36,663 bases of DNA from a virus. The notes beneath the pieces were generated by a model. That model saw nothing but the letters and a program-made list of their open reading frames with translations. It made no database searches and was not told the DNA's origin. The stretch lies in the IMG/VR virus record IMGVR_UViG_3300042507_001284, positions 1 to 36,663 of that record. One strand, written 5' to 3'. The translations under genes and the position numbers were made by a program. Shown piece after piece: positions 126 to 30,818 of this stretch; the stretch's first letter is position 1, and every line of letters begins with the position of its first letter.

Positions 126-1077
126 TCACAACTTTACCCGCAAGTGCGCCAAAGACCCTGATGAAGTACGCCACGCTATGGTGCGTGGACACACAATCAC
201 GCCGCGATTTGGTCGCCGCATTACAGATGTGCTCAAGGGGATGCTCCGGCCTGCGCTGATCGCCAAGCCTGGTCACGTCCTGATCGCCTACGACTGGTCG
301 GCCATCGAGGGCCGCGTGCACCCGTGGCTGTCCAACAGCCCAGCCGGTGAGCAAAAGCTGGACGTGTTCCGCTCCGGCCTTGACCCGTACAAAGTCAACG
401 CAGCCGCCACGTTCCGCGTGTCCTACGAAGACGTCGCCGGTGACCAGCGCCAGGTCGGCAAGGTGCAAGAGCTGGCCCTTGGCTTTCTGGGCGGCGCAGG
501 CGCGTTCGAGGTGTTTGGCCGTGCCTACGGCATCCGGCTGTCACCGGGCGAAGTCCAGCGCGCTGTGGACGGCTGGCGCAGGGCCAACCCGTGGGCGCAA
601 CTGCACGGCCAACAACTGGAAGCCGCGTACCTGCGCGCCATGAGAAACAAAGGGCATGAATTTAAAGCAGGGCGTGTTGTGTACTTGTTTGACGGTCAGA
701 CCCTCTGGTATGCTTTGCCCTCCGGTCGGGTGCTGTGCTACCCCAACGCCAAATTTGATGATGAAGGCAACGTGACGTACACCAAAGCAGCATGGAAGCC
801 CGCCGCCGACGCCAAGGAGTGGCCCCGCGCCCGCCTGTGGCGTGGTCTGGCTTGCGAAAACGTCACGCAGGCCGCAGCGCACGACATCTTGCGCCACTCA
901 CTGCGCCAGCTTGATGGCGTCGTCTTGCACGTCCATGATGAGATCGTCGTCGAGTGCCCAGCCTCCGAGGCCGAGGCGGTCGCTGCGCGTATGCACCAGG
1001 TCATGTGCGCCCCGCCTGCATGGGCGGCTGGCCTGCCCTTGGCCGCTGAAGGTGTGACCACCACCCGATACTCGTAA
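1..1077 (+). CDS. DNA polymerase I family (PolA), C-terminal polymerase part
   Basis: This is the 3' part of a family A DNA polymerase whose 5' part is at 35684-36538. Joined across the contig ends the protein is about 643 residues. The frame is open from base 1. Motif A is YDWSAIEGR, with its metal-binding Asp near residue 383 of the joined protein. A motif B equivalent with Lys follows (KVQELALGFLGGAGAF), close to the variant seen in other phage PolA proteins. Motif C is HVHDEIVVE, with Asp/Glu near 598-599. It would copy the phage genome, probably with the primase-helicase 59 bases downstream. The ATG at 178 is internal and is not the start. The protein ends at TAA 1075-1077 and is followed by a hairpin. 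Confidence 0.95.
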   Translation, partial: SSVAKFNRLANLADEEDHRVRGAFVFAGGAATGRASSYGAQVHNFTRKCAKDPDEVRHAMVRGHTITPRFGRRITDVLKGMLRPALIAKPGHVLIAYDWSAIEGRVHPWLSNSPAGEQKLDVFRSGLDPYKVNAAATFRVSYEDVAGDQRQVGKVQELALGFLGGAGAFEVFGRAYGIRLSPGEVQRAVDGWRRANPWAQLHGQQLEAAYLRAMRNKGHEFKAGRVVYLFDGQTLWYALPSGRVLCYPNAKFDDEGNVTYTKAAWKPAADAKEWPRARLWRGLACENVTQAAAHDILRHSLRQLDGVVLHVHDEIVVECPASEAEAVAARMHQVMCAPPAWAAGLPLAAEGVTTTRYS

Positions 1078-1135: not shown

Positions 1136-3436
1136 GTGACAGATTTCATAGAACATCTTACCAGACTTGCCCCAGAGGGTGAAACTTTTTTGCTGGTACG
1201 GCAAAAACCGCGCCTCAAAGAGGGCGAGATGCAGTTCCACCCCGACGGCGCGATCAAGGCCACATGGCCCGCCATGCTGCCCACGACCAAGGTCAAGCCC
1301 GACTGGGCCATCTACGGCAACACCGCGTCGTTCATCATCGACCGCTTCAAGGACGGCCACATTAGCGCCAGCGCGGCCAACTGCGAGTATGTGCTGGTGA
1401 TGGTGCTGGACGACGTGGGCGACCCTGTGAAGGCGCCGCGTGTGCCTGCGCTTGAACCGACGTGGAAGATCGAAACCAGCCCCGGCTCGTTCCAGTGGGG
1501 TTATGTGTTTAGTGAGCAGCCCACCAAGGCCGAGTTCAGCGCGGCCATACGCGCCATCGCTGATGCTGGCTACACCGACCCCGGCGCCTGCAACGCCGTG
1601 CGTAATTTCCGCATTCCCGGCTCGATCAACATGAAGCCTGGCCGCAACAACTTCGCCGCCGCGCTGCGCGAGTTCCACCCCGAGCGTGACTTCACCCTTG
1701 AGCAGATTTGCACCGCCCTGAACGTGGTGCCCGGTGAAGCCGAGGACACCTATCGCCCGATTCGCCTGAGCGACGACGGCACCGACGACGTGATGGTGTG
1801 GCTGTCCGACAACGGCCTGCTGCTGTCCAAACCCAATCAAGAGGGTTGGGCTGGCGTGATCTGCCCCAACAACGCCCAGCACACCGACGGCAACCCCGAG
1901 GGCCGCTACATGCCCGCCAATCGGGCCTACTGCTGCCTGCACTCACACTGCATCGACCTCGATTCGTCTGTGTTCCTTAAGTGGGTGGCCGACAATGGCG
2001 GCCCCAAGCACACCCCCGGCCTGCGCGAGGAGCTGCTGGCCGCTGCGATGGAGTCAGCTCTGTCTAAGCTGGCCCCGACGCCCGAGTACCCCGACGCCGC
2101 CGCCGCTATCGTGGCCGAGGTCGAGCGCAAAGAGCTGGGCCGCGTCGAGAAGGAAGGTTGGTATGAGCGCTTTGCATATCTGCAAGACGATGACGCCTAC
2201 TTTGACATGCAAGAGCGCCGCGAGGTCAGCCGCGCCACGTTTAATGCCATTTTCCGGCACATCGGCTGCAACTCAATCCACGGGCGACGCGGCAAGATCG
2301 AAGCCGCTACCAGTTTCGATGAGCACCGCCAGGCCAAGGGCGCCCGGTCGCTGGTCGGCCTGACCTACGCCCCCGGCGAGTCGATCCTCTGCGCCCGTGA
2401 CGGCCTGGTATACGGCAACCGCTGGCGCGACGCCCGCCCGGTGGCCGTGGCCGGTGACGTCGGCCCCTGGCTGGCTCACGTCGAGCGCATGATTCCCGAT
2501 GAGCGTGAGCGTGAGCATGTCCTAAACGTGATGGCCTTCAAGGTCCAAAACCCTAACCGCAAGATTAACCACGCCGTCCTACATGGTGGCGCCCCCGGTG
2601 CCGGTAAAGACACCCTGTGGGCGCCGTTCCTGTGGGCCATTGGCGGCGACGCCCTGGTTAACGTGTCCCTGGTGCGTAACGAAGAGCTGACGTCCCAGTG
2701 GGGCTACGCCCTTGAAACCGAGGTGATGGTCATTAATGAGCTGCGCCAGGCCGAAGCCAAGGACCGCCGCGCCCTTGAAAACCAATTGAAGCCCCTGATC
2801 GCCGCGCCCCCTGACATGCTGCCGATTAACCGCAAGGGCTTGCACCCCTACATGGCCCTGAATCGTTTGTTTGTCCTGGCCTACTCAAATGAGCGCGTCG
2901 CGATCAACCTCCCCACGGAGGATCGTCGCTGGTTCGTTATCTGGTCCGACGCGGGCCGCATGTCCCCGGCTGAGTCCGTGGGCCTGTGGGCCTGGTACAA
3001 GTCCGGCGGCATGTCCCGAGTGGCCGCGTGGCTGCACCAGCGCGACGTGTCCGCGTTCAATCCTGGCTTGCCCCCAATGATGACCGAAGCCAAAGCGATT
3101 ATGGTTGAAGCTGGCATGTCCGGCGCTGAATCGTTCCTTGTAGAGCTTATGCGCGCCCGCATCGGGGAATTCTCAAAAGGCGTGGTCGGCGCGCCCTGGC
3201 ATGCGCTATGCGACCGCTTGCAAGGGTCCGCGCCAGGCGCCATTAAAGTGGTCCAGGGCGCGCTATTGCACGCGCTTAAAGAAGCCGGTTGGGTTGATAT
3301 GGGGCGCCTGAAATCGCGCCGCTATGACACGAAAAAGCACATATTTTGCGCGCCCGATATGGTTGAAATGTCCCGGTCCGATTTGCGCGACATGGTAGAG
3401 GATCCTCCGGCGTCGGTTTTGCAGCGCGTCAAATGA
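1136..3436 (+). CDS. Phage primase-helicase (AEP-type primase plus DUF5906-like helicase)
   Basis: This 766-residue protein probably primes and unwinds DNA at the phage fork. The first ~270 residues resemble the RepB/AEP-type primase domain of phage and plasmid replication proteins (segment FQWGYVFSEQPTKAEF and the following RNFRIPGSINMK). The C-terminal half holds a P-loop ATPase: Walker A GGAPGAGKDT at residues 484-493 (Lys491), an acidic strand VMVINELRQ near 535, and a later segment with NRLFVLAYSNE and EDRRWFVIW, typical of DUF5906/D5-like viral helicases. The start is GTG at 1136, chosen for the strong ribosome site AAAGGAGA at 1123-1130. It is the last gene of the plus-strand replication operon; its stop codon touches the bidirectional terminator. 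P4 alpha is a functional analogue that binds origin repeats; whether this protein does so is inference. Confidence 0.85.
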   Translation: MTDFIEHLTRLAPEGETFLLVRQKPRLKEGEMQFHPDGAIKATWPAMLPTTKVKPDWAIYGNTASFIIDRFKDGHISASAANCEYVLVMVLDDVGDPVKAPRVPALEPTWKIETSPGSFQWGYVFSEQPTKAEFSAAIRAIADAGYTDPGACNAVRNFRIPGSINMKPGRNNFAAALREFHPERDFTLEQICTALNVVPGEAEDTYRPIRLSDDGTDDVMVWLSDNGLLLSKPNQEGWAGVICPNNAQHTDGNPEGRYMPANRAYCCLHSHCIDLDSSVFLKWVADNGGPKHTPGLREELLAAAMESALSKLAPTPEYPDAAAAIVAEVERKELGRVEKEGWYERFAYLQDDDAYFDMQERREVSRATFNAIFRHIGCNSIHGRRGKIEAATSFDEHRQAKGARSLVGLTYAPGESILCARDGLVYGNRWRDARPVAVAGDVGPWLAHVERMIPDEREREHVLNVMAFKVQNPNRKINHAVLHGGAPGAGKDTLWAPFLWAIGGDALVNVSLVRNEELTSQWGYALETEVMVINELRQAEAKDRRALENQLKPLIAAPPDMLPINRKGLHPYMALNRLFVLAYSNERVAINLPTEDRRWFVIWSDAGRMSPAESVGLWAWYKSGGMSRVAAWLHQRDVSAFNPGLPPMMTEAKAIMVEAGMSGAESFLVELMRARIGEFSKGVVGAPWHALCDRLQGSAPGAIKVVQGALLHALKEAGWVDMGRLKSRRYDTKKHIFCAPDMVEMSRSDLRDMVEDPPASVLQRVK

Positions 3437-4055: not shown

Positions 4056-4258
4056 GGTATGAAATCTTGCAAGTTTGCGGCCATTGTGGAATAGGGGCCA
4101 GTTTGAAAAACGGCCCGATATGCATGGTAAACCTCTAACAGTTTGACCGGGCGCCCTTTATGGTGGCCGTGCACGCCTGGCCGGGGCCATGTCTCGCGCG
4201 TCGGATACCGGTCCGGCGCCGGGTTATGCTTGTATCCTGGAATCGGTGATTCGATCAT
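4043..4258 (-). CDS. Hypothetical protein, 71 residues, small-gene operon
   Basis: A basic, Pro/His-rich small protein that begins MIESPIPGYKHNPAPDRYPT. The frame extends further upstream, but the ATG at 4258 is chosen because it overlaps the TGA of the 252-residue gene as ATGA and has GAGGG about 7 bases ahead. The longer form would read through another gene. No family is recognised. It sits directly after the Cys-rich 252-residue protein, so a joint role is possible but not shown. Confidence 0.6.
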   Translation of the reverse strand: MIESPIPGYKHNPAPDRYPTRETWPRPGVHGHHKGRPVKLLEVYHAYRAVFQTGPYSTMAANLQDFIPCDK

Positions 4259-5013
4259 GCTGCTACCCTCATTTGAATAACGCGCTTTTGGTGGCCGGTG
4301 GCATGGTCCGCGATGACCACGTCGCGCGCTTGTATGCTTGTACCAGCGCATAGCGTGCATTTGGCACATGTGGACCGACGGCCACCTTCAGCGCTAGCCG
4401 GACAAATGGTTTCGCCTGGCTGTTTGTCCACGCCCACGGACACGCGGAAAACGCGCATGCCCATTAGGTTAGCGCGCGCGGCCTGATCGATATTGTCCGC
4501 GCTTGCCATAACCAATGGCGCCCATGCACTGGCGTCAAAATTCGGGTTTTGCCATTGGTGCGTGTAGCCACGGCGACCGGCCGCATAGCGGGTTATTTGC
4601 GCCCACATTTGGACCGGCGCGGCGAACGGGTCGCCATAGGTGCCAAGCCGGACAATTTTTCCCGCCAGGGCGCGGGCGATTGTGGCCGGGTCCGCTTTTG
4701 TATATCGCCCGCGCTTGTACGCGTTAAACACGGACAACACGGACCGGCCCACATTCACATAACATGGGGCTTCGCCGTTTTTCGCGGCCAGTATTGGCCG
4801 GTGGACACAATCGCCACAAATTGACGCGTCGTCGCCCGTTTTAAGCGCTACCGTGGGCGCGACGTCGGACCGGATGATAAAAGTCTGTACAAGCGCGCCC
4901 GTTTTTTCGTTTTCGCTGTCGCTGTCAATTTTGTTCACAATGACGACAATGGGCGCGCCGTCGATTTCCGACGGACCCTCATACGCGATAAAACCCAAAA
5001 ATTTGTTTGACAT
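4255..5013 (-). CDS. Cys-rich conserved phage/plasmid-type protein, 252 residues
   Basis: The largest gene of the minus-strand operon. It has two cysteine clusters: CGDC at 66-69 with Cys84, and a C-terminal set at Cys204, Cys216, Cys219 and Cys222 (TCAKCTLCAG), probably binding zinc or an iron-sulfur cluster. A middle segment has GRRGYTHQW and a VFRVSVG strand. The layout (CGdC, then cYvn, a YTHQW segment, then a C-terminal CxxCxxC) recalls a widespread uncharacterised phage and plasmid family, from memory DUF7227, but I cannot confirm this. The ribosome site GAGGAAA precedes the ATG. The position beside the putative origin makes a replication or early control role plausible. It is not a known enzyme by any motif I can see. 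Confidence 0.75.
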   Translation of the reverse strand: MSNKFLGFIAYEGPSEIDGAPIVVIVNKIDSDSENEKTGALVQTFIIRSDVAPTVALKTGDDASICGDCVHRPILAAKNGEAPCYVNVGRSVLSVFNAYKRGRYTKADPATIARALAGKIVRLGTYGDPFAAPVQMWAQITRYAAGRRGYTHQWQNPNFDASAWAPLVMASADNIDQAARANLMGMRVFRVSVGVDKQPGETICPASAEGGRRSTCAKCTLCAGTSIQARDVVIADHATGHQKRVIQMRVAA

Positions 5014-5015
5014 GT

Positions 5016-5246
5016 TCAGATTTCCTCATTCAAACGGATAGATGAAATATTGCGGCGACGCAATGGCATGGGCATGCACGTTTGTTCGTACATTGCATCG
5101 CGCGCTTCATATGCGGCCCATATCGCGCGGCCGACGGGTTTGCGTGGGCTTGTTTGCGCTTGCGCGCCGCGCATGGTGCGATAGCCTTTAGGGTTGCCGA
5201 CAATGGCGTCGTTACAGTCACGGATAAAAAACATATCAAGCCCCAT
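5016..5246 (-). CDS. Hypothetical protein, 76 residues, small-gene operon
   Basis: Small protein that begins MGLDMFFIRDCNDAIVGNPK and continues with GYRTMRGAQAQ and a basic RKPVGRAIWAAY segment. The pattern FIRDCND...GxxKGYRTMRGA looks like a family met in several phages and plasmids, but I know no function. The ATG at 5246 is preferred over an in-frame TTG at 5267, because the latter lies within the 29-residue gene upstream and the ATG overlaps that gene's TGA closely. It ends 2 bases before the 252-residue gene and probably forms a pair with it. Confidence 0.65.
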   Translation of the reverse strand: MGLDMFFIRDCNDAIVGNPKGYRTMRGAQAQTSPRKPVGRAIWAAYEARDAMYEQTCMPMPLRRRNISSIRLNEEI

Positions 5247-5325
5247 AAAAGTAAAAATAAGCAGCAAACGGCGCGCCGATGCACGCGGCGAAAAGCAGCG
5301 CGTCGATGATTTCGGAGAATTTCAT
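5236..5325 (-). CDS. 29-residue membrane peptide, first gene of the minus operon
   Basis: A short frame that begins MKFSEIIDALLFAACIG and continues into a hydrophobic, aromatic stretch ending FYFYGA. One membrane span is likely (about residues 9-27). Its TGA lies within the start of the 76-residue gene, an 11-base overlap that suggests coupling. The ribosome site is weak (GTGAAAG). It is the first gene downstream of the repeat-rich non-coding region. No family is known. It could be a small membrane regulator or superinfection factor; this is inference. Confidence 0.5.
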   Translation of the reverse strand: MKFSEIIDALLFAACIGAPFAAYFYFYGA

Positions 5326-5354
5326 ACAGTACTTTCACTGGTTTGGTTGAACAT

Positions 5355-5804
5355 GTGGACAGTGTAACAGATTCTTTTGCACAAATGTGCATTGTAAGCG
5401 CGTTTGTTACAAACTGTTACAAATTAGCGTTTGTGGACATGGTGGACTGTTTGCGGACTATAGAAAAACGCGGGCATGGTCCACGCGGCGCGCCCCTATT
5501 TATGCGGGTTTGAGCTGTTTGTGGACAATGTGGACTATTAGATGAAATGTTAAAAAAAATGAACTGCCTATTTTTTAAGCAAATAGGGGTCTAGCGATTT
5601 AAACAGCATGGTCCACATGTCCACATTGTCCACACGCCCGCGCCCACTCCCCGCGTTTTATGCCATAGGTTAGCCGCTACTAACCTATTTGTGGACTGTC
5701 CACATTGTCCACAAACTACAGTTTATACAGTGATGTATATGCATACAGTACCAGGTTTTGCAAACTGCCCGCGCGGCTGTTTGTGGACTGTCCACATTGT
5801 CCAC
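5355..5804. repeat. Array of GTGGAC / GTCCAC elements
   Basis: GTGGAC starts at 5355, 5433, 5442, 5521, 5530, 5691 and 5783. GTCCAC starts at 5479, 5611, 5619, 5628, 5698, 5707, 5790 and 5799. Neighbouring copies within a cluster are mostly 7-9 bases apart. Four fall in the exact 9-mer TTGTCCACA or its complement (5520-5528, 5626-5634, 5705-5713, 5797-5805). This differs by one base from the E. coli DnaA box and matches the form used by high-G+C bacteria. The array could bind DnaA, the phage primase-helicase or a phage repressor. Confidence 0.85.
5665..5688. repeat. Perfect inverted repeat ATAGGTTAG / CTAACCTAT
   Basis: Nine-base arms at 5665-5673 and 5680-5688 flank a 6-base loop. The arm shares GTTAG with the 16-bp tandem repeats 140 bases away and runs directly into the first 28-bp block. 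It could be a dimer binding site or a cruciform/hairpin of the origin. It is not followed by a T-run, so it is not a standard terminator. Confidence 0.7.
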
Positions 5805-5807
5805 AAA
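5688..5807. repeat. 28-bp block duplicated at 5688-5715 and 5780-5807
   Basis: The two blocks are identical over 28 bases and 92 bases apart start to start. Each contains GTGGAC followed by two GTCCAC elements and is bounded by TTTGTGGAC on the left and GTCCACAAA on the right, so its ends form an inverted repeat. Each block would present three half-sites within under three helical turns, the arrangement expected for cooperative protein binding. Confidence 0.85.
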
Positions 5808-5808
5808 T

Positions 5809-5865
5809 GTTAGCGCGCACTAACGTTAGCGCGCACTGGCGTTAGTGCACACTGACGTTAGTAGC
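5809..5865. repeat. Three 16-bp tandem repeats plus a partial copy (iteron-like)
   Basis: The consensus GTTAGCGCGCACTGAC occurs at 5809-5824, 5825-5840 and 5841-5856 without gaps. The third copy has GTGCAC in place of GCGCGC, and a partial GTTAG begins at 5857. Each unit contains a self-complementary core (GCGCGC or GTGCAC), so a symmetric protein could bind each one. They start one base after the second 28-bp block. Confidence 0.85.
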
Positions 5866-5983
5866 TGCTTACTTGCATGCTGCCTAATATTTATGCATGC
5901 GGATAGACAGCTGGATGGTTGGATGGATTTTTGTCGAGGGGGAGGGGGTAGGGCCGGTCAATGGGCCAGCCGGTAGCGTAGCG

Positions 5984-6011
5984 TTCACGAACAATTTTTA
6001 TTTTTTACAAA
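5984..6011 (+). promoter_or_regulatory. Possible promoter for the terminase operon
   Basis: TTCACG (5984-5989), a 16-base spacer and TACAAA (6006-6011) match the sigma-70 consensus at 4 of 6 positions each. It lies 43 bases before the small terminase ATG in an AT-rich stretch. The late block needs a start point hereabouts, but the match is modest and a phage-specific activator cannot be excluded. Confidence 0.35.
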
Positions 6012-6054
6012 ATGCTTTACACTCCCCCGCACGCATCCACGCGGCCATACAACT

Positions 6055-6510
6055 ATGAGTTTTCATTCACTGCCACTTGTCATCAACGAAGTGCGCGCCA
6101 CAGAGGCGGTGCTTAACCGCATCTACGACGCCGCCAAGCTCGGCTTGAAGGGCGACAACTTAGCGCTTGCCGCAGGCATGGTGCCCACCGCCTACCGGCA
6201 GTTGTGCGAGTTAGACAGAGCGGCGCAGTTGGCCGAACAAAAAGGCCGCGCCGACGGGGAGCTGCTGGCGTCTAAGCAACTGCACAAGGCAGCCGAGCAG
6301 GGCGACGCCAAGGCAGCGCTGGCGGTCTTGCAAAACGTCCACGGCTGGGTAGCCAAGCAGGCCATCACAGTGGACGTCAACCAACAGATCAGCATCCTTG
6401 GCGCACTGGCCGAAGCCGAGCGCAGGGCAGCAGACGTGGTGGACGTTATCGCACACGAACCAAGCCCCGCACTGCAAGCGCGGCTGGCCCCACACAAACA
6501 AAGCGTCTGA
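6055..6510 (+). CDS. Terminase small subunit (putative)
   Basis: This 151-residue protein lies directly before the large terminase with a TGATG overlap, the usual place of the DNA-recognition subunit that selects phage DNA for packaging. The N-terminal ~55 residues (IYDAAKLGLKGDNLALAAGM then PTAYRQLCE) look like a helix-turn-helix. The middle is helical (HKAAEQGDAKAALAVLQNVHG), as in the oligomerisation region of small terminases. Sequence similarity in this family is low, so the call rests on size, predicted fold and position. No ribosome site is visible before the ATG, which is unusual for this genome. Confidence 0.75.
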   Translation: MSFHSLPLVINEVRATEAVLNRIYDAAKLGLKGDNLALAAGMVPTAYRQLCELDRAAQLAEQKGRADGELLASKQLHKAAEQGDAKAALAVLQNVHGWVAKQAITVDVNQQISILGALAEAERRAADVVDVIAHEPSPALQARLAPHKQSV

Positions 6511-8039
6511 TGCAAACCACAATCTATTCGGCTGAAGACGAACAAGAACTCATGGCGCGCCTGTGGGCGCCGCAGTACAAGGACAACCCACTGGCGTTTG
6601 TGCTGTACACGTTCCCGTGGGGCGTCAAGGGCACGCCGCTGGAACACTTCAGTGGCCCACGCAAATGGCAGCGCGAGGTGCTCCAGCAGATCGCCGAGCA
6701 CATCAAACAGAACAAAGGTCAGGTGGACTTCAACACCCTACGCCACGCGGTGTCATCAGGGCGCGGTATCGGCAAGTCGGCGTTAGTCTCATGGATCGTG
6801 ATCTGGATGCTGTCCACACGCATCGGCTCGACGACCATCGTGTCGGCTAACAGTGAGTCGCAGCTCCGCTCGATCACATGGGCCGAGATCACTAAGTGGC
6901 TGGCGATGTCGCTCAACAGCCACTGGTTCGAGGTGTCAGCCACCAGGCTGATGCCAGCCAAGTGGCTGACCGAGCTGGTCGAGCGTGACCTGAAAAAAGG
7001 CACGCGTTACTGGGGCGTTGAGGGCAGGCTCTGGTCAGCGGAGAACCCAGACGCTTACGCGGGTGTGCACAACTTCGACGGCGTGATGGTAATCTTCGAC
7101 GAGGCCAGCGGTATTGACGACGCCATCTGGGCGGTAACGGCGGGTTTCTTTACAGAGAACACGCCGAACCGCTTTTGGCTGGCGTTTTCCAACCCACGGC
7201 GCAACAGCGGGTATTTCTACGAAACATTCCACAGCAAGCGCGAGTTCTGGCAGACCAAGGTGGTGGACGCGCGCACGGTGGAGGGCACGGACAAGCAGGT
7301 CTACCAGCAGATCATCGACGAATACGGGGCCGACTCATCGCAGGCGCACGTTGAGGTGTACGGCGAGTTTCCAAACGCTGGCGACGACCAGTTCATCTCC
7401 AGCATGGTGGTGGACGACGCCATGAAGCGGCCCCTGCACAAAGACCCAAGCGCGCCGGTCATCATCGGCGTGGACCCAGCGCGGTTCGGGGCAGACGCCA
7501 CCGTGCTGGCCGTGCGGCAAGGGCGGGACATCGTGCGGATCATTCGGCACAGGGGCGACGACACCATGACGGTGGTCGGGCACGTCATCGACGCCATCGA
7601 AGAATTCAAGCCCGCGATGGTGTTCATCGACGAGGGTGGCCTGGGAGCGGGCATCGTGGACCGGCTCAAAGAGCAGCGCTACAAGATCAAGGGCGTCAAC
7701 TTCGGCTGGAAGTCCAAGAACCCGGCCATGTACGGCAACATGCGGGCGCAAATCTGGGGCGACATGCGCGACTGGCTCAAGTCGGCCAGCATCCCCAACG
7801 ACAGGTTCTTGAAAACCGACCTGATCTCACCTATGATGAAGCCGGACTCCAAAGGATCGATCTTCTTGGAGTCGAAAAAGGACATGAAAGCGCGAGGTTT
7901 GGCATCACCAGACGCTGCCGACGCCATAGCGCTGACATTTTCGTACCCGGTCGCAAACCGCGAGGGGTACAATTCTCGTAACACAATTCGTACACTGGCG
8001 CCCAGCCGCGCGGTGGCAACTGGATGGATGGGGTCGTAA
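6510..8039 (+). CDS. Terminase large subunit
   Basis: The 509-residue packaging motor ATPase and nuclease. The ATPase has a P-loop at residues 82-90 (SSGRGIGKS, Lys89) and Walker B VMVIFDE at 192-198. The C-terminal RNase H-like nuclease has its three acidic sites in GVDPARFGAD (Asp322), MVFIDEGG (Asp374) and SPDAADAIAL (Asp468/Asp471). It forms the packaging complex at the portal with the small subunit upstream. Length and motif order are standard for a full-length protein. It starts in a TGATG overlap and its TAA overlaps the next ATG, so it belongs to one continuous translation unit. Confidence 0.95.
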   Translation: MQTTIYSAEDEQELMARLWAPQYKDNPLAFVLYTFPWGVKGTPLEHFSGPRKWQREVLQQIAEHIKQNKGQVDFNTLRHAVSSGRGIGKSALVSWIVIWMLSTRIGSTTIVSANSESQLRSITWAEITKWLAMSLNSHWFEVSATRLMPAKWLTELVERDLKKGTRYWGVEGRLWSAENPDAYAGVHNFDGVMVIFDEASGIDDAIWAVTAGFFTENTPNRFWLAFSNPRRNSGYFYETFHSKREFWQTKVVDARTVEGTDKQVYQQIIDEYGADSSQAHVEVYGEFPNAGDDQFISSMVVDDAMKRPLHKDPSAPVIIGVDPARFGADATVLAVRQGRDIVRIIRHRGDDTMTVVGHVIDAIEEFKPAMVFIDEGGLGAGIVDRLKEQRYKIKGVNFGWKSKNPAMYGNMRAQIWGDMRDWLKSASIPNDRFLKTDLISPMMKPDSKGSIFLESKKDMKARGLASPDAADAIALTFSYPVANREGYNSRNTIRTLAPSRAVATGWMGS

Positions 8040-8304: not shown

Positions 8305-8469
8305 ATGGCTACAAAACCCGGACTCTACGCCAACATCCACGCCAAACGCGAGCGCATTGCTGCCGGTTCTGGCGAAAAGATGCGCAAACCCGGCTCTGCT
8401 GGCGCACCCACGGCCAAAGACTTCAAAGAGTCGGCCAAAACGGCCAAAAAGCCAGCGAAAGGTAAATGA
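8305..8469 (+). CDS. Small basic phage protein, 54 residues
   Basis: The protein begins MATKPGLYANIHAKRERI and contains GSGEKMRKPGSAGAPTAKDF, ending in a Lys/Ala-rich tail. Very similar small proteins (MATKxGLYANIHAKRxRI...GEKMRKPG) recur in phage and metagenome contigs next to terminase or portal genes; no function is known. The ATG at 8305 is chosen because GGAAG lies 8 bases ahead; upstream in-frame ATGs lie inside the preceding gene. It sits between two other small basic proteins, so the three may form a set for DNA or capsid handling. Confidence 0.75.
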   Translation: MATKPGLYANIHAKRERIAAGSGEKMRKPGSAGAPTAKDFKESAKTAKKPAKGK

Positions 8470-8618
8470 TGCCACTCGTCAAAAGTGCCTCAAAAGAGGC
8501 GTTTCGCAAGAATGTAAAGGCCGAAGTGGCCTCTGGCAAGCCCGTCAAACAGGCCGTTGCTATCGCCTACTCTGTCAAGCGCGAAGCCCAAAAACCAGCC
8601 CAAAAGAGCAAAAAATGA
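8469..8618 (+). CDS. Small basic phage protein, 49 residues
   Basis: The protein begins MPLVKSASKEAFRKNVKAEV and includes GKPVKQAVAIAYSVKR, a pattern I recognise from small conserved proteins near head genes in many phages and prophages, with no assigned function. Two adjacent ATG codons (8466 and 8469) could start it; both overlap the previous stop. It ends at TGA 8616-8618, overlapping the next gene's ATG as ATGA. It is rich in Lys and Ala and predicted helical. Confidence 0.75.
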   Translation: MPLVKSASKEAFRKNVKAEVASGKPVKQAVAIAYSVKREAQKPAQKSKK

Positions 8619-8857
8619 CCCTTCGTGCCATGCAAAACTGCCTGATCATCCAGCGTGATGTCGAAAAACATCCGCTGTTTGTGCTCCCACTCGACGAAAG
8701 CGGCGAGACAGGCATCGTGGTATCGGCTGGGCCGGACTGCAAAGAACTCAAGTCCGGTGATCACGTATACTTTGGGGTAGGGCAAGAATTTGCGCACGGT
8801 GGCACGAAGTACGTTGTCATCCGCGAACCCCATGTTTTAGGAGTCTTGAATGGCTGA
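8615..8857 (+). CDS. GroES-like co-chaperonin fold protein, 80 residues
   Basis: The protein begins MTLRAMQNCLIIQRDV. It shows the short beta-barrel pattern of GroES/Hsp10: GIVVSAGPD, then ELKSGDHVYFG, then TKYVVIREPHVLGVL, matching the G.V...G / l..Gd.V.f / y.vv.e.dilgvl signature. It is somewhat shorter than bacterial GroES (about 95 residues) and the mobile loop is reduced. Phage co-chaperonins such as T4 gp31 help the host GroEL fold the coat protein, and a gene just before the portal fits that role. The start is the ATG overlapping the previous stop. It could instead be a GroES-like barrel with a structural role. Confidence 0.6.
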   Translation: MTLRAMQNCLIIQRDVEKHPLFVLPLDESGETGIVVSAGPDCKELKSGDHVYFGVGQEFAHGGTKYVVIREPHVLGVLNG

Positions 8858-29774: not shown

Positions 29775-30073
29775 ACGGTTGCTCCTTGAATACTGACCCA
29801 ATGTGTGCGCGGCTTGTATGTGTTGCCGCCCCACTTAACGCGGTCCTTCGGGTGTGGGCAGTCCTCAGGCACTCTGATCGCCACCCACACCTTGGAATAC
29901 TGCCCGCGCTTGCCTAACTGCCAGCGGTCCACATAAACGTCAGGCATCGCCCGCAGCGACGTCCTGACGTTGGCGACGTGCATTCCAGTTGCCGCCGCGA
30001 TCTCATGCGGCGTCATCCCGTCGGGCCTAGCCCGTAGCAGCGCCCTCACTTTTCTTTGGCGTACTGGCGTCAC
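29771..30073 (-). CDS. Winged-helix / HTH DNA-binding-like protein, 100 residues
   Basis: The start is GTG at 30073, with the strong site AGGAG 8 bases ahead, overlapping the previous gene as GTGA. The N-terminal VRALLRARPDGMTPHEIAAA, then TGMHVANVRTSLRAMP, is a clear helix-turn-helix of winged type (MarR/ArsR-like), with a wing strand (YSKVWVAIR). It is likely a transcription regulator of the phage or an antagonist of a host regulator. It is the only obvious DNA-binding protein of the minus-strand operon besides the zinc proteins. The role is inferred. Confidence 0.7.
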   Translation of the reverse strand: MTPVRQRKVRALLRARPDGMTPHEIAAATGMHVANVRTSLRAMPDVYVDRWQLGKRGQYSKVWVAIRVPEDCPHPKDRVKWGGNTYKPRTHWVSIQGATV

Positions 30074-30702
30074 TCTTGCTTCTCCTCGATTGTGTAAAAC
30101 CAATCGTCACCAGCAGACCACTTGCGTGTGCCATCCACGGTGTAGAACTCTTTGGCTGCTTGGAAGTCAGGAAACTTGACCTCGGCGGGGATCAGGCTCT
30201 GGTCGTACCACAAGCACCGGTTGTTGGGCTGCGTGGCAAACTGACCGTTCTCCAGTCGAATGAAGTTAAACGACTTGTGCTCCTCGGCTTGTTCGGTAAA
30301 CCCAGTGTCAGCGTCCATGCCGTCAGCGCAGAAGTCCACGGTAAACATGTAGCGTCCGTGGTGCCACTCTTTGTCCTTGCCCAAGAACTTGACGCCGAGG
30401 TTGCGCAGGCCAATCTTCTCGCATACCGTGAAGCGGTAGCCCATGCAGTCCCACAGTTGCAGCGTGTCGATGGGTAGATCACCGTACTCCTCTTTCCACA
30501 CGTAGGCGTGAAGGGGTAACTTGTCGTACAGAGCGCCGTAGTTGGGCAGCAACGATTCGATGCGAAACACTTGGCCGCGCAGCGCTTTGATGCTGACCCA
30601 AATAGCAGGCTCCAACTCGCCGTGACCTTTGGTGTGGTTGTACAGGAACTCGCGGCGCACAAAGCACTTGAGTGGTGGCAGTGATGCAATGATGTAACTC
30701 AC
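30070..30702 (-). CDS. Hypothetical protein, 210 residues
   Basis: The start is GTG at 30702 with AAGGAG about 9 bases ahead; a frame start further upstream lies in the preceding gene. The protein begins MSYIIASLPPLKCFVRREFL and has YNHTKGHGELEPAIWVS, then SIKALRGQVFRIESLLPNYG, and HGRYMFTVDFCADGMDADTG further on. It looks like a folded globular phage protein; I recognise no enzyme motif. Its stop overlaps the next GTG. It is conserved in shape with early phage genes of unknown function. Confidence 0.7.
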   Translation of the reverse strand: MSYIIASLPPLKCFVRREFLYNHTKGHGELEPAIWVSIKALRGQVFRIESLLPNYGALYDKLPLHAYVWKEEYGDLPIDTLQLWDCMGYRFTVCEKIGLRNLGVKFLGKDKEWHHGRYMFTVDFCADGMDADTGFTEQAEEHKSFNFIRLENGQFATQPNNRCLWYDQSLIPAEVKFPDFQAAKEFYTVDGTRKWSAGDDWFYTIEEKQE

Positions 30703-30818
30703 TCTTGCTTCTCCTTGACCGTAGCCCATGCCACTTGGTTGCACTTAGCGCATTGGTAGTGGTACTGACTGCGGTGTGGTGATGGGGTCAGCAGCCAGCG
30801 GTGTTTGCATTGGTTCAT
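30699..30818 (-). CDS. Tiny zinc-ribbon-like protein, 39 residues
   Basis: The protein begins MNQCKHRWLLTPSPHRSQYH and continues YQCAKCNQVAWATVKEKQE. Cys4, His6, Cys23 and Cys26 form a likely zinc-binding set (C-x-H...C-x2-C). The ribosome site AAGGAGAG precedes the ATG, which overlaps the previous stop as ATGA. The 3' end overlaps the next gene as GTGA. The function is unknown; a protein-binding adaptor is possible. Confidence 0.7.
   Translation of the reverse strand: MNQCKHRWLLTPSPHRSQYHYQCAKCNQVAWATVKEKQE

Follow-up and report, generated by a model that had tools for sequence, protein, structure and literature searches.

Genes and features around the array

We analyzed a linear IMG/VR virus record of 36,663 bases, and this whole stretch of DNA is called the window here. 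In the window, we found genes for terminase, portal, major head, head closure, tail fibre and endolysin proteins, and no integrase was found among the scanned ORFs. The record is best explained as a podovirus-like phage with a genome of roughly 37 kb. Near the contig end, the C-terminal part of a family A DNA polymerase (178–1077, plus strand) adjoins a gene for a 766-amino-acid primase-helicase (1136–3436, plus strand), which has an N-terminal AEP-like primase, an SF3-like helicase (DUF5906) and a predicted C-terminal winged helix. This protein is the proposed reader of the array described below; codons for its residues 720–733 (3293–3334, plus strand) include the wing tip, residues 724–731 (RLKSRRYD), where we found the residues that track the word of the array. 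Small leftward genes follow, including one for a Cys-rich 252-amino-acid accessory protein (phrog_2554; 4255–5013, minus strand), so that the end of the primase gene (3436) is separated from the start of the array (5355) by several leftward ORFs over about 1.9 kb. To the right of the array are a presumed terS (6055–6510, plus strand), which has no family match and is assigned by its position right of the array and directly upstream of the large terminase, the large terminase subunit gene (6510–8039, plus strand), the portal gene and the virion genes. The array lies between divergent operons, as an earlier note on this DNA had stated; these are the leftward early and rightward terminase operons. 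Elsewhere in the window, a ferredoxin-family gene (30070–30744, minus strand; phrog_3704, E 3e-74) is a possible auxiliary metabolic gene, and the C-terminal part of the product of 8357–8857 resembles a phage co-chaperonin GroES (phrog_3188, E 9e-6).

We found 15 exact copies of GTGGAC or GTCCAC within 450 bases (5355–5804), as compared to a mean of 0.21 copies and a maximum of 3 in 2000 first-order Markov simulations of positions 5326–5865, which confirms the count in the earlier note. The spacing and the reversals of orientation that it described are also present: start-to-start distances of adjacent copies inside clusters are 7, 8 or 9 bases, and the orientation flips from cluster to cluster. 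The copies are mainly tandem GTCCACA pairs and triplets about 9 bp apart. On the left side, there is a pair of GTGGAC copies with 9 bp spacing (5432–5447, minus strand) and a second pair, TGTGGACAATGTGGAC (5520–5535, minus strand), that adjoins an AT-rich gap. The gap (about 5536–5608, up to 78% AT per 40 nt) separates the opposed iteron sets and is a candidate unwinding element. On its right side, there is a triplet of GTCCACA (5609–5634, plus strand) and an iteron module, TTTGTGGACTGTCCACATTGTCCACAAA, in two copies (5688–5715 and 5780–5807, plus strand). Iterons left of the gap are thus in one orientation and those to the right are mostly in the opposite one. The DnaA-like form TTGTCCACA, one base off the DnaA box, occurs in four exact copies in the array (5520 on the minus strand; 5626, 5705 and 5797 on the plus strand), again as the earlier note had counted, and in one copy outside it (12446). 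When we scanned all 36,663 bases of the window, we found no second GTCCACA tandem array.

No gene of a recognised family overlaps the array. The broader claim that no gene overlaps it does not hold for mechanical ORFs, however, as the first copy (5355) lies inside one (5030–5392, minus strand). A leftward ORF of 29 codons (approximately 5238–5325), identified by eye, stops just short of the array. GC skew, which had been suggested as a check, was negative or uninformative: there is no clear inflection at the array and the cumulative minimum in the window is near 19–20 kb. No Rfam family was matched, and a promoter scan gave a result no better than chance.

Three other elements lie in or beside the array. 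A second short repeat with a spacing of about 16 bp, GTTAGCGCGCACTAAC / GTTAGCGCGCACTGGC / GTTAGTGCACACTGAC, adjoins the array at 5809–5863, and ACTAAC words are also common near the array in several relatives. ATACAGT words are present beside the left promoter region (5324) and within the array (5725 and 5743), and 61 of 138 relatives also have them upstream of terS; they are possibly a second operator. A G-rich element, GGGNAGGGCCG, precedes terS (5938–5970); 119 of 138 relatives have it no more than 300 nt from terS, and it could be a packaging signal.

Relatives keep the array in place with different words

To compare relatives, we used 155 loci from IMG/VR and then about 160 further loci. 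Because automatic motif finding locus by locus sometimes gave poly-T, we scanned the last 1 kb before terS with a fixed pattern, [AG][CT][CT]NA[CA]A in tandem, 8–10 bp apart, to which words outside this pattern are invisible. A tandem 7-mer array of at least 4 instances was found at 203 of 213 loci, with a median of 10 instances, as compared to a median of 0 in reversed sequence and a mean of 0.19 in shuffled sequence. Of 1071 adjacent pairs, 911 are spaced 9 bp apart. At 145 of 183 loci, opposed iteron sets lie 50–200 bp apart around an AT-rich gap, and the richest 40 nt of the gap have a mean AT fraction of 0.81 as compared to 0.63 in the control.

In contrast to its place and layout, the word of the array is not kept, so that conservation, another check suggested in the earlier note, was found for position and arrangement only. 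The majority word is GTCCACA at 61 loci, ACCCAAA at 27, GCCAACA at 26 and ACCCACA at 18; rarer majority words are GCCCACA (6 loci), GCCGACA (4), ACTCACA (3) and GCCTACA (2). For example, locus L007 encodes a primase 92% identical and a TerS 97% identical to those of the window and has GCCAACA where the window has GTCCACA. A count of GTGGAC alone had suggested that half of the relatives are without the array; we rejected this, as the array is present and the word has changed. The closest named relative by primase, MW202483.1 (50% identity), has a GTTTACA array at the corresponding place, and no named phage matched the array region in a search at the DNA level.

In one locus, L172, the array (5551–6112) is chimeric: its left half is ACCCAAA, its right half is GTCCACA, and the primase wing matches ACCCAAA. 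This array may be the product of recombination with a crossover inside the array, or an assembly chimera. We also looked for satellites with a GTCCACA array among 71 newly fetched loci, of which 11 had no primase or TerL in the piece covered. In those of the 11 that were inspected, the copies are scattered or otherwise arranged, and we therefore claim no satellite.

Primase-helicase residues 724–731 track the word

The primase columns that share most mutual information with the word class are residues 724–731, near the C-terminus. In the first set of loci, GTCCACA primases have K726 and D731 in 44 of 44 cases, GCCAACA primases have A726 with Q or G at 731, and ACCCAAA primases are without R728. 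At the level of single bases, over about 1970 iteron instances, R728 goes with C at position 6 in 1477 of 1608 (92%) and G or S at 728 goes with A6 in 346 of 362 (96%). D731 goes with T at position 2 (672/791, 85%) and other residues at 731 go mostly with C2. K726 goes with C at position 4 (985/1044, 94%), S726 with G4 (31/40) and G726 with A4 (23/23), and A726 is found with any base at this position. L724 goes with A at position 1 in 85% of instances. Exceptions to the R728, K726 and D731 rules amount to 6–15% of single instances.

We then applied the first-set rules to held-out loci, 55 of 100 of which have wing sequences absent from training. Residue 728 predicted base 6 at 99 of 100 loci, residue 731 predicted base 2 at 96 of 100 and K726 predicted base 4 at 25 of 25; the single failure for residue 728 is the chimeric locus L172. 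The array, its conserved place and layout, the diversity of its words, and the covariation with its held-out prediction are all direct results of computation.

To account for shared ancestry, we placed independent contrasts on a tree of primase residues 1–650. Switches between T and C at position 2 were accompanied by the expected change at residue 731 in 14 of 16 phylogenetically independent contrasts, and switches between C and A at position 6 were accompanied by the expected change at residue 728 in 6 of 6. Some of these contrasts separate phages that are merely 0.015–0.04 apart over the rest of the primase. In the two remaining position-2 contrasts (wings RIKSRDHD and RIKSRDFE), the word changes without a change of the expected type at 731. 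Among 1426 columns of primase, TerL and TerS, those that best split switched from same-word pairs are primase 726 (differing in 8/18 switched pairs as compared to 0/50 same-word pairs), 731 (9/18 as compared to 4/50) and 729 (7/18 as compared to 0/50). Primase columns 744 and 745 vary among same-word pairs too.

The residue-to-base code is incomplete. Wing RLASREYQ occurs with several words (GCCAACA, ACCCACA and GCCTACA), indicating that position 4, and sometimes position 1, is not set by residues 724–731. The RIKSRD wing group has a mix of GTCCACA and GCCCACA. Two further relatives, L428 (wing RLKSRRHD) and L426 (A726), have GTCCACA, which fits the rules, and GCC[ACT]ACA, respectively. Contact of an arginine or lysine with the G of a C:G pair would be of an ordinary type.

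Where near-identical phages differ in word, they are diverged over a block that starts at the primase 3' end, takes in the accessory genes and reaches the array, and are nearly identical on both sides of it, indicating that the word switches mainly by cassette exchange. Because this whole block, variable genes included, is often swapped as a unit, linkage contributes to the covariation, and a hidden partner could be carried along by it.

Word-tracking residues are predicted to lie in a wing

An AlphaFold model of the whole primase-helicase has a moderate mean pLDDT of 72. The fold of the full model matches the NrS-1 helicase (6k9c, E 3e-13), SaPI PriRep (7pds and 7ola), poxvirus D5/E5 and AEP primases, and a profile search also matched the NrS-1 helicase region (6k9c, E 3e-11). 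Taken by domain, the DUF5906 helicase matches the folds of the NrS-1 helicase and the SV40 large T helicase, and the N-terminus has AEP/RepB-type fold matches (6zp9 and 3h25) and a weak RepB_primase match.

When the C-terminal domain was modeled alone, the model was confident from about residue 667 onward. It has helices at approximately 688–696 and 707–717 and strands at 720–725 and 734–738, with a loop between the strands (726–733), and the mean pLDDT is above 90 over the strand-loop-strand region (720–738). A fold search with this domain alone gave no significant PDB match; many of the weak matches are winged helices. Bases are usually read by a recognition helix, not by a wing. Here, the models predict that the word-tracking residues 724–731 lie in the wing and not in the usual base-reading helix, and we dropped the idea that they form a recognition helix.

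The array is very probably a replication origin read by the primase-helicase

Taken together, we consider it very probable that the array is the phage replication origin and that the phage-encoded primase-helicase binds its iterons with the C-terminal winged-helix domain. The earlier note had listed sites for such a protein, as in P4 alpha, among several possibilities, and the residue-to-base covariation strongly supports this one. In the proposed mechanism, the wing tip (724–731) would read the 7-mer, with residue 728 reading base 6, residue 726 base 4, residue 731 base 2 (and 3) and residue 724 base 1. Primase-helicase subunits would bind iterons on both sides of the AT-rich gap and build hexamers there, and these hexamers would melt the AT-rich DNA, self-load and prime the two forks. 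Word and wing would have been swapped jointly many times, mainly as a cassette extending from the primase 3' end to the array. Binding, melting, origin activity and bidirectionality are what we infer for this locus.

The same iterons could in principle be read by a host protein. If they were DnaA boxes (TTGTCCACA is close to TTATCCACA), host DnaA would open the phage origin, and the four exact copies of TTGTCCACA, the 2–4 TATCCACA words that some GTCCACA-type relatives also carry and the AT-rich gap adjoining the sites would all fit. However, only the GTCCACA word is DnaA-like: relatives with 92–97% identical primase and TerS have GCCAACA at the same positions, which is unlike a DnaA box, ACCCAAA, ACCCACA and GCCGACA arrays are not DnaA boxes either, and the word follows residues of the phage primase. 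The DnaA-type origin proposed in the earlier note is thus disfavoured, and we regard it as very unlikely. The covariation might also be hitchhiking, with the array read by the product of a different gene of the exchanged cassette to which the primase wing is only linked; near-identical phages do differ over one block comprising the primase 3' end, accessory genes and array. But no accessory gene family near the array is found at more than 65 of 186 loci (as families were grouped on sequence similarity, diverged homologues may fall into separate ones). Linkage would also be expected to make all C-terminal columns track the word, whereas the signal is concentrated at 726, 729 and 731, and rules from one set of loci predict the bases in another. 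Such hitchhiking therefore seems highly improbable. The Cys-rich 252-amino-acid protein was rejected as a general reader, its family being present at just 43 of 186 loci.

The position of the array might also suit two other functions. It lies between divergent operons and covers their upstream regions, so that its main role could be to regulate these two operons, leftward early and rightward terminase, through binding of the primase-helicase or a different phage protein, with replication starting elsewhere. Initiators of this kind often regulate transcription as well. On the other hand, opposed iteron sets around an AT-rich gap suit an origin, the word forms no other array in the window, and the accessory gene families are too infrequent to encode a dedicated repressor, leaving the repressor array of the earlier note with no support. 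We find it unlikely that the array is mainly an operator, and repression may be a side effect of initiator binding. As the array is directly upstream of terS and near the conserved G-rich element that could be a packaging signal, it might instead be the region bound by the small terminase beside a cos or pac site. However, TerS identity is 91–97% among phages that differ in word (L007, L054, L055 and L064), and the columns that best track word switches include none from TerS or TerL, so that both proteins were rejected as readers and a packaging site is extremely unlikely.

Comparison with known initiators

The class of origin to which the array would belong is already known. PICI origins have two iteron sets on either side of an AT-rich region (PMC6092414), and the C-terminal domain of SaPI Rep recognises its own iterons (PMC7581432). 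Common to these systems and the phage are iteron sets flanking an AT-rich region and a primase-helicase or helicase that loads itself and carries a DNA-binding domain at its C-terminus (for the phage, both the self-loading and the domain are predicted), and the phage primase model matches the SaPI structures 7pds and 7ola. In SaPI and PICI Rep, the C-terminal domain fixes iteron specificity, and the covariation of residues 724–731 with the word in sequence comparisons suggests the same trait here. In contrast, the SaPI array is immediately 3' of rep, whereas here leftward accessory genes and about 1.9 kb separate the array from the primase gene upstream of it; SaPIs and PICIs are satellites that have an integrase and an incomplete set of virion genes, whereas this phage has its own terminase, portal and capsid genes and no integrase among the scanned ORFs; and here at least 8 words are found within one family. 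The P4 alpha protein combines a primase, an SF3 helicase and a C-terminal winged helix that binds origin repeats (PMC4234260), an arrangement shared with the phage protein, in which the winged helix is predicted; however, P4 alpha has a TOPRIM primase domain whereas the phage protein is AEP-like, and P4 is a satellite with a different word. The closest solved helicase region to that of the phage protein is in the NrS-1 polymerase. Phage NrS-1 has an 8-nt recognition sequence with two genome copies, and the C-terminal Tail domain of its polymerase was described as a novel fold (PMC7102993); NrS-1 has two recognition copies and no iteron array, in contrast to the phage described here.

Joint change of initiator and origin has also been described. 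In the PLE RepA of Vibrio cholerae, the DNA-binding domain and ori covary and are swapped as a module, cognate pairing was shown experimentally, and the origin-directed ICP1 nuclease Odn was proposed as the force selecting on the PLE ori (PMC8263062). The phage shares the covariation and the exchange as a module. However, PLEs have a RepA_N initiator and two specificity groups in five PLEs, whereas here there are an SF3 primase-helicase and at least 8 words, and the covariation narrows specificity to a few wing residues. In geminiviruses, the iteron words of close relatives differ and correspond to short specificity stretches of Rep (PMC12548392). This resembles the tracking of the word by a short initiator stretch here, but geminivirus Rep is a rolling-circle initiator of ssDNA plant viruses with an unrelated fold, whereas the phage has dsDNA and a winged helix.

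The array is thus ordinary in its class and unusual in its diversity and readability. In the open-licence literature, we did not find a description of a free phage family with so many words and a residue-level wing relation, and a multi-word series read at residue level by a wing appears to be new. We put forward, as a tentative possibility only, that this one phage family has at least 8 initiator-iteron pairs, that these are read base by base by the wing tip rather than by a recognition helix, and that they have been cassette-switched repeatedly as an escape from parasites or rivals by which the origin word is recognised.

The residue-to-base relation for the specificity of a replication initiator comes from natural variation and was borne out by the held-out loci. 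With it, one can test why phages repeatedly alter the word of an otherwise conserved origin, for which candidate reasons are superinfection incompatibility, satellites that borrow the origin and origin-directed nucleases as in the conflict between ICP1 and PLE. The words offer a way to predict initiator-origin pairing from metagenomic contigs, and having many of them could give orthogonal origins for laboratory replicons.

The related phages are lake phages, in which the layout of the array is kept and the word differs together with a few wing-tip amino acids. Phage relatives L426, L428 (MAG of Rhodoferax sp.) and L430 (beta proteobacterium MAG) were found in contigs binned with freshwater Burkholderiales. 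These bins hint at the host, although relatives also occur in actinobacterium and Mucilaginibacter bins.
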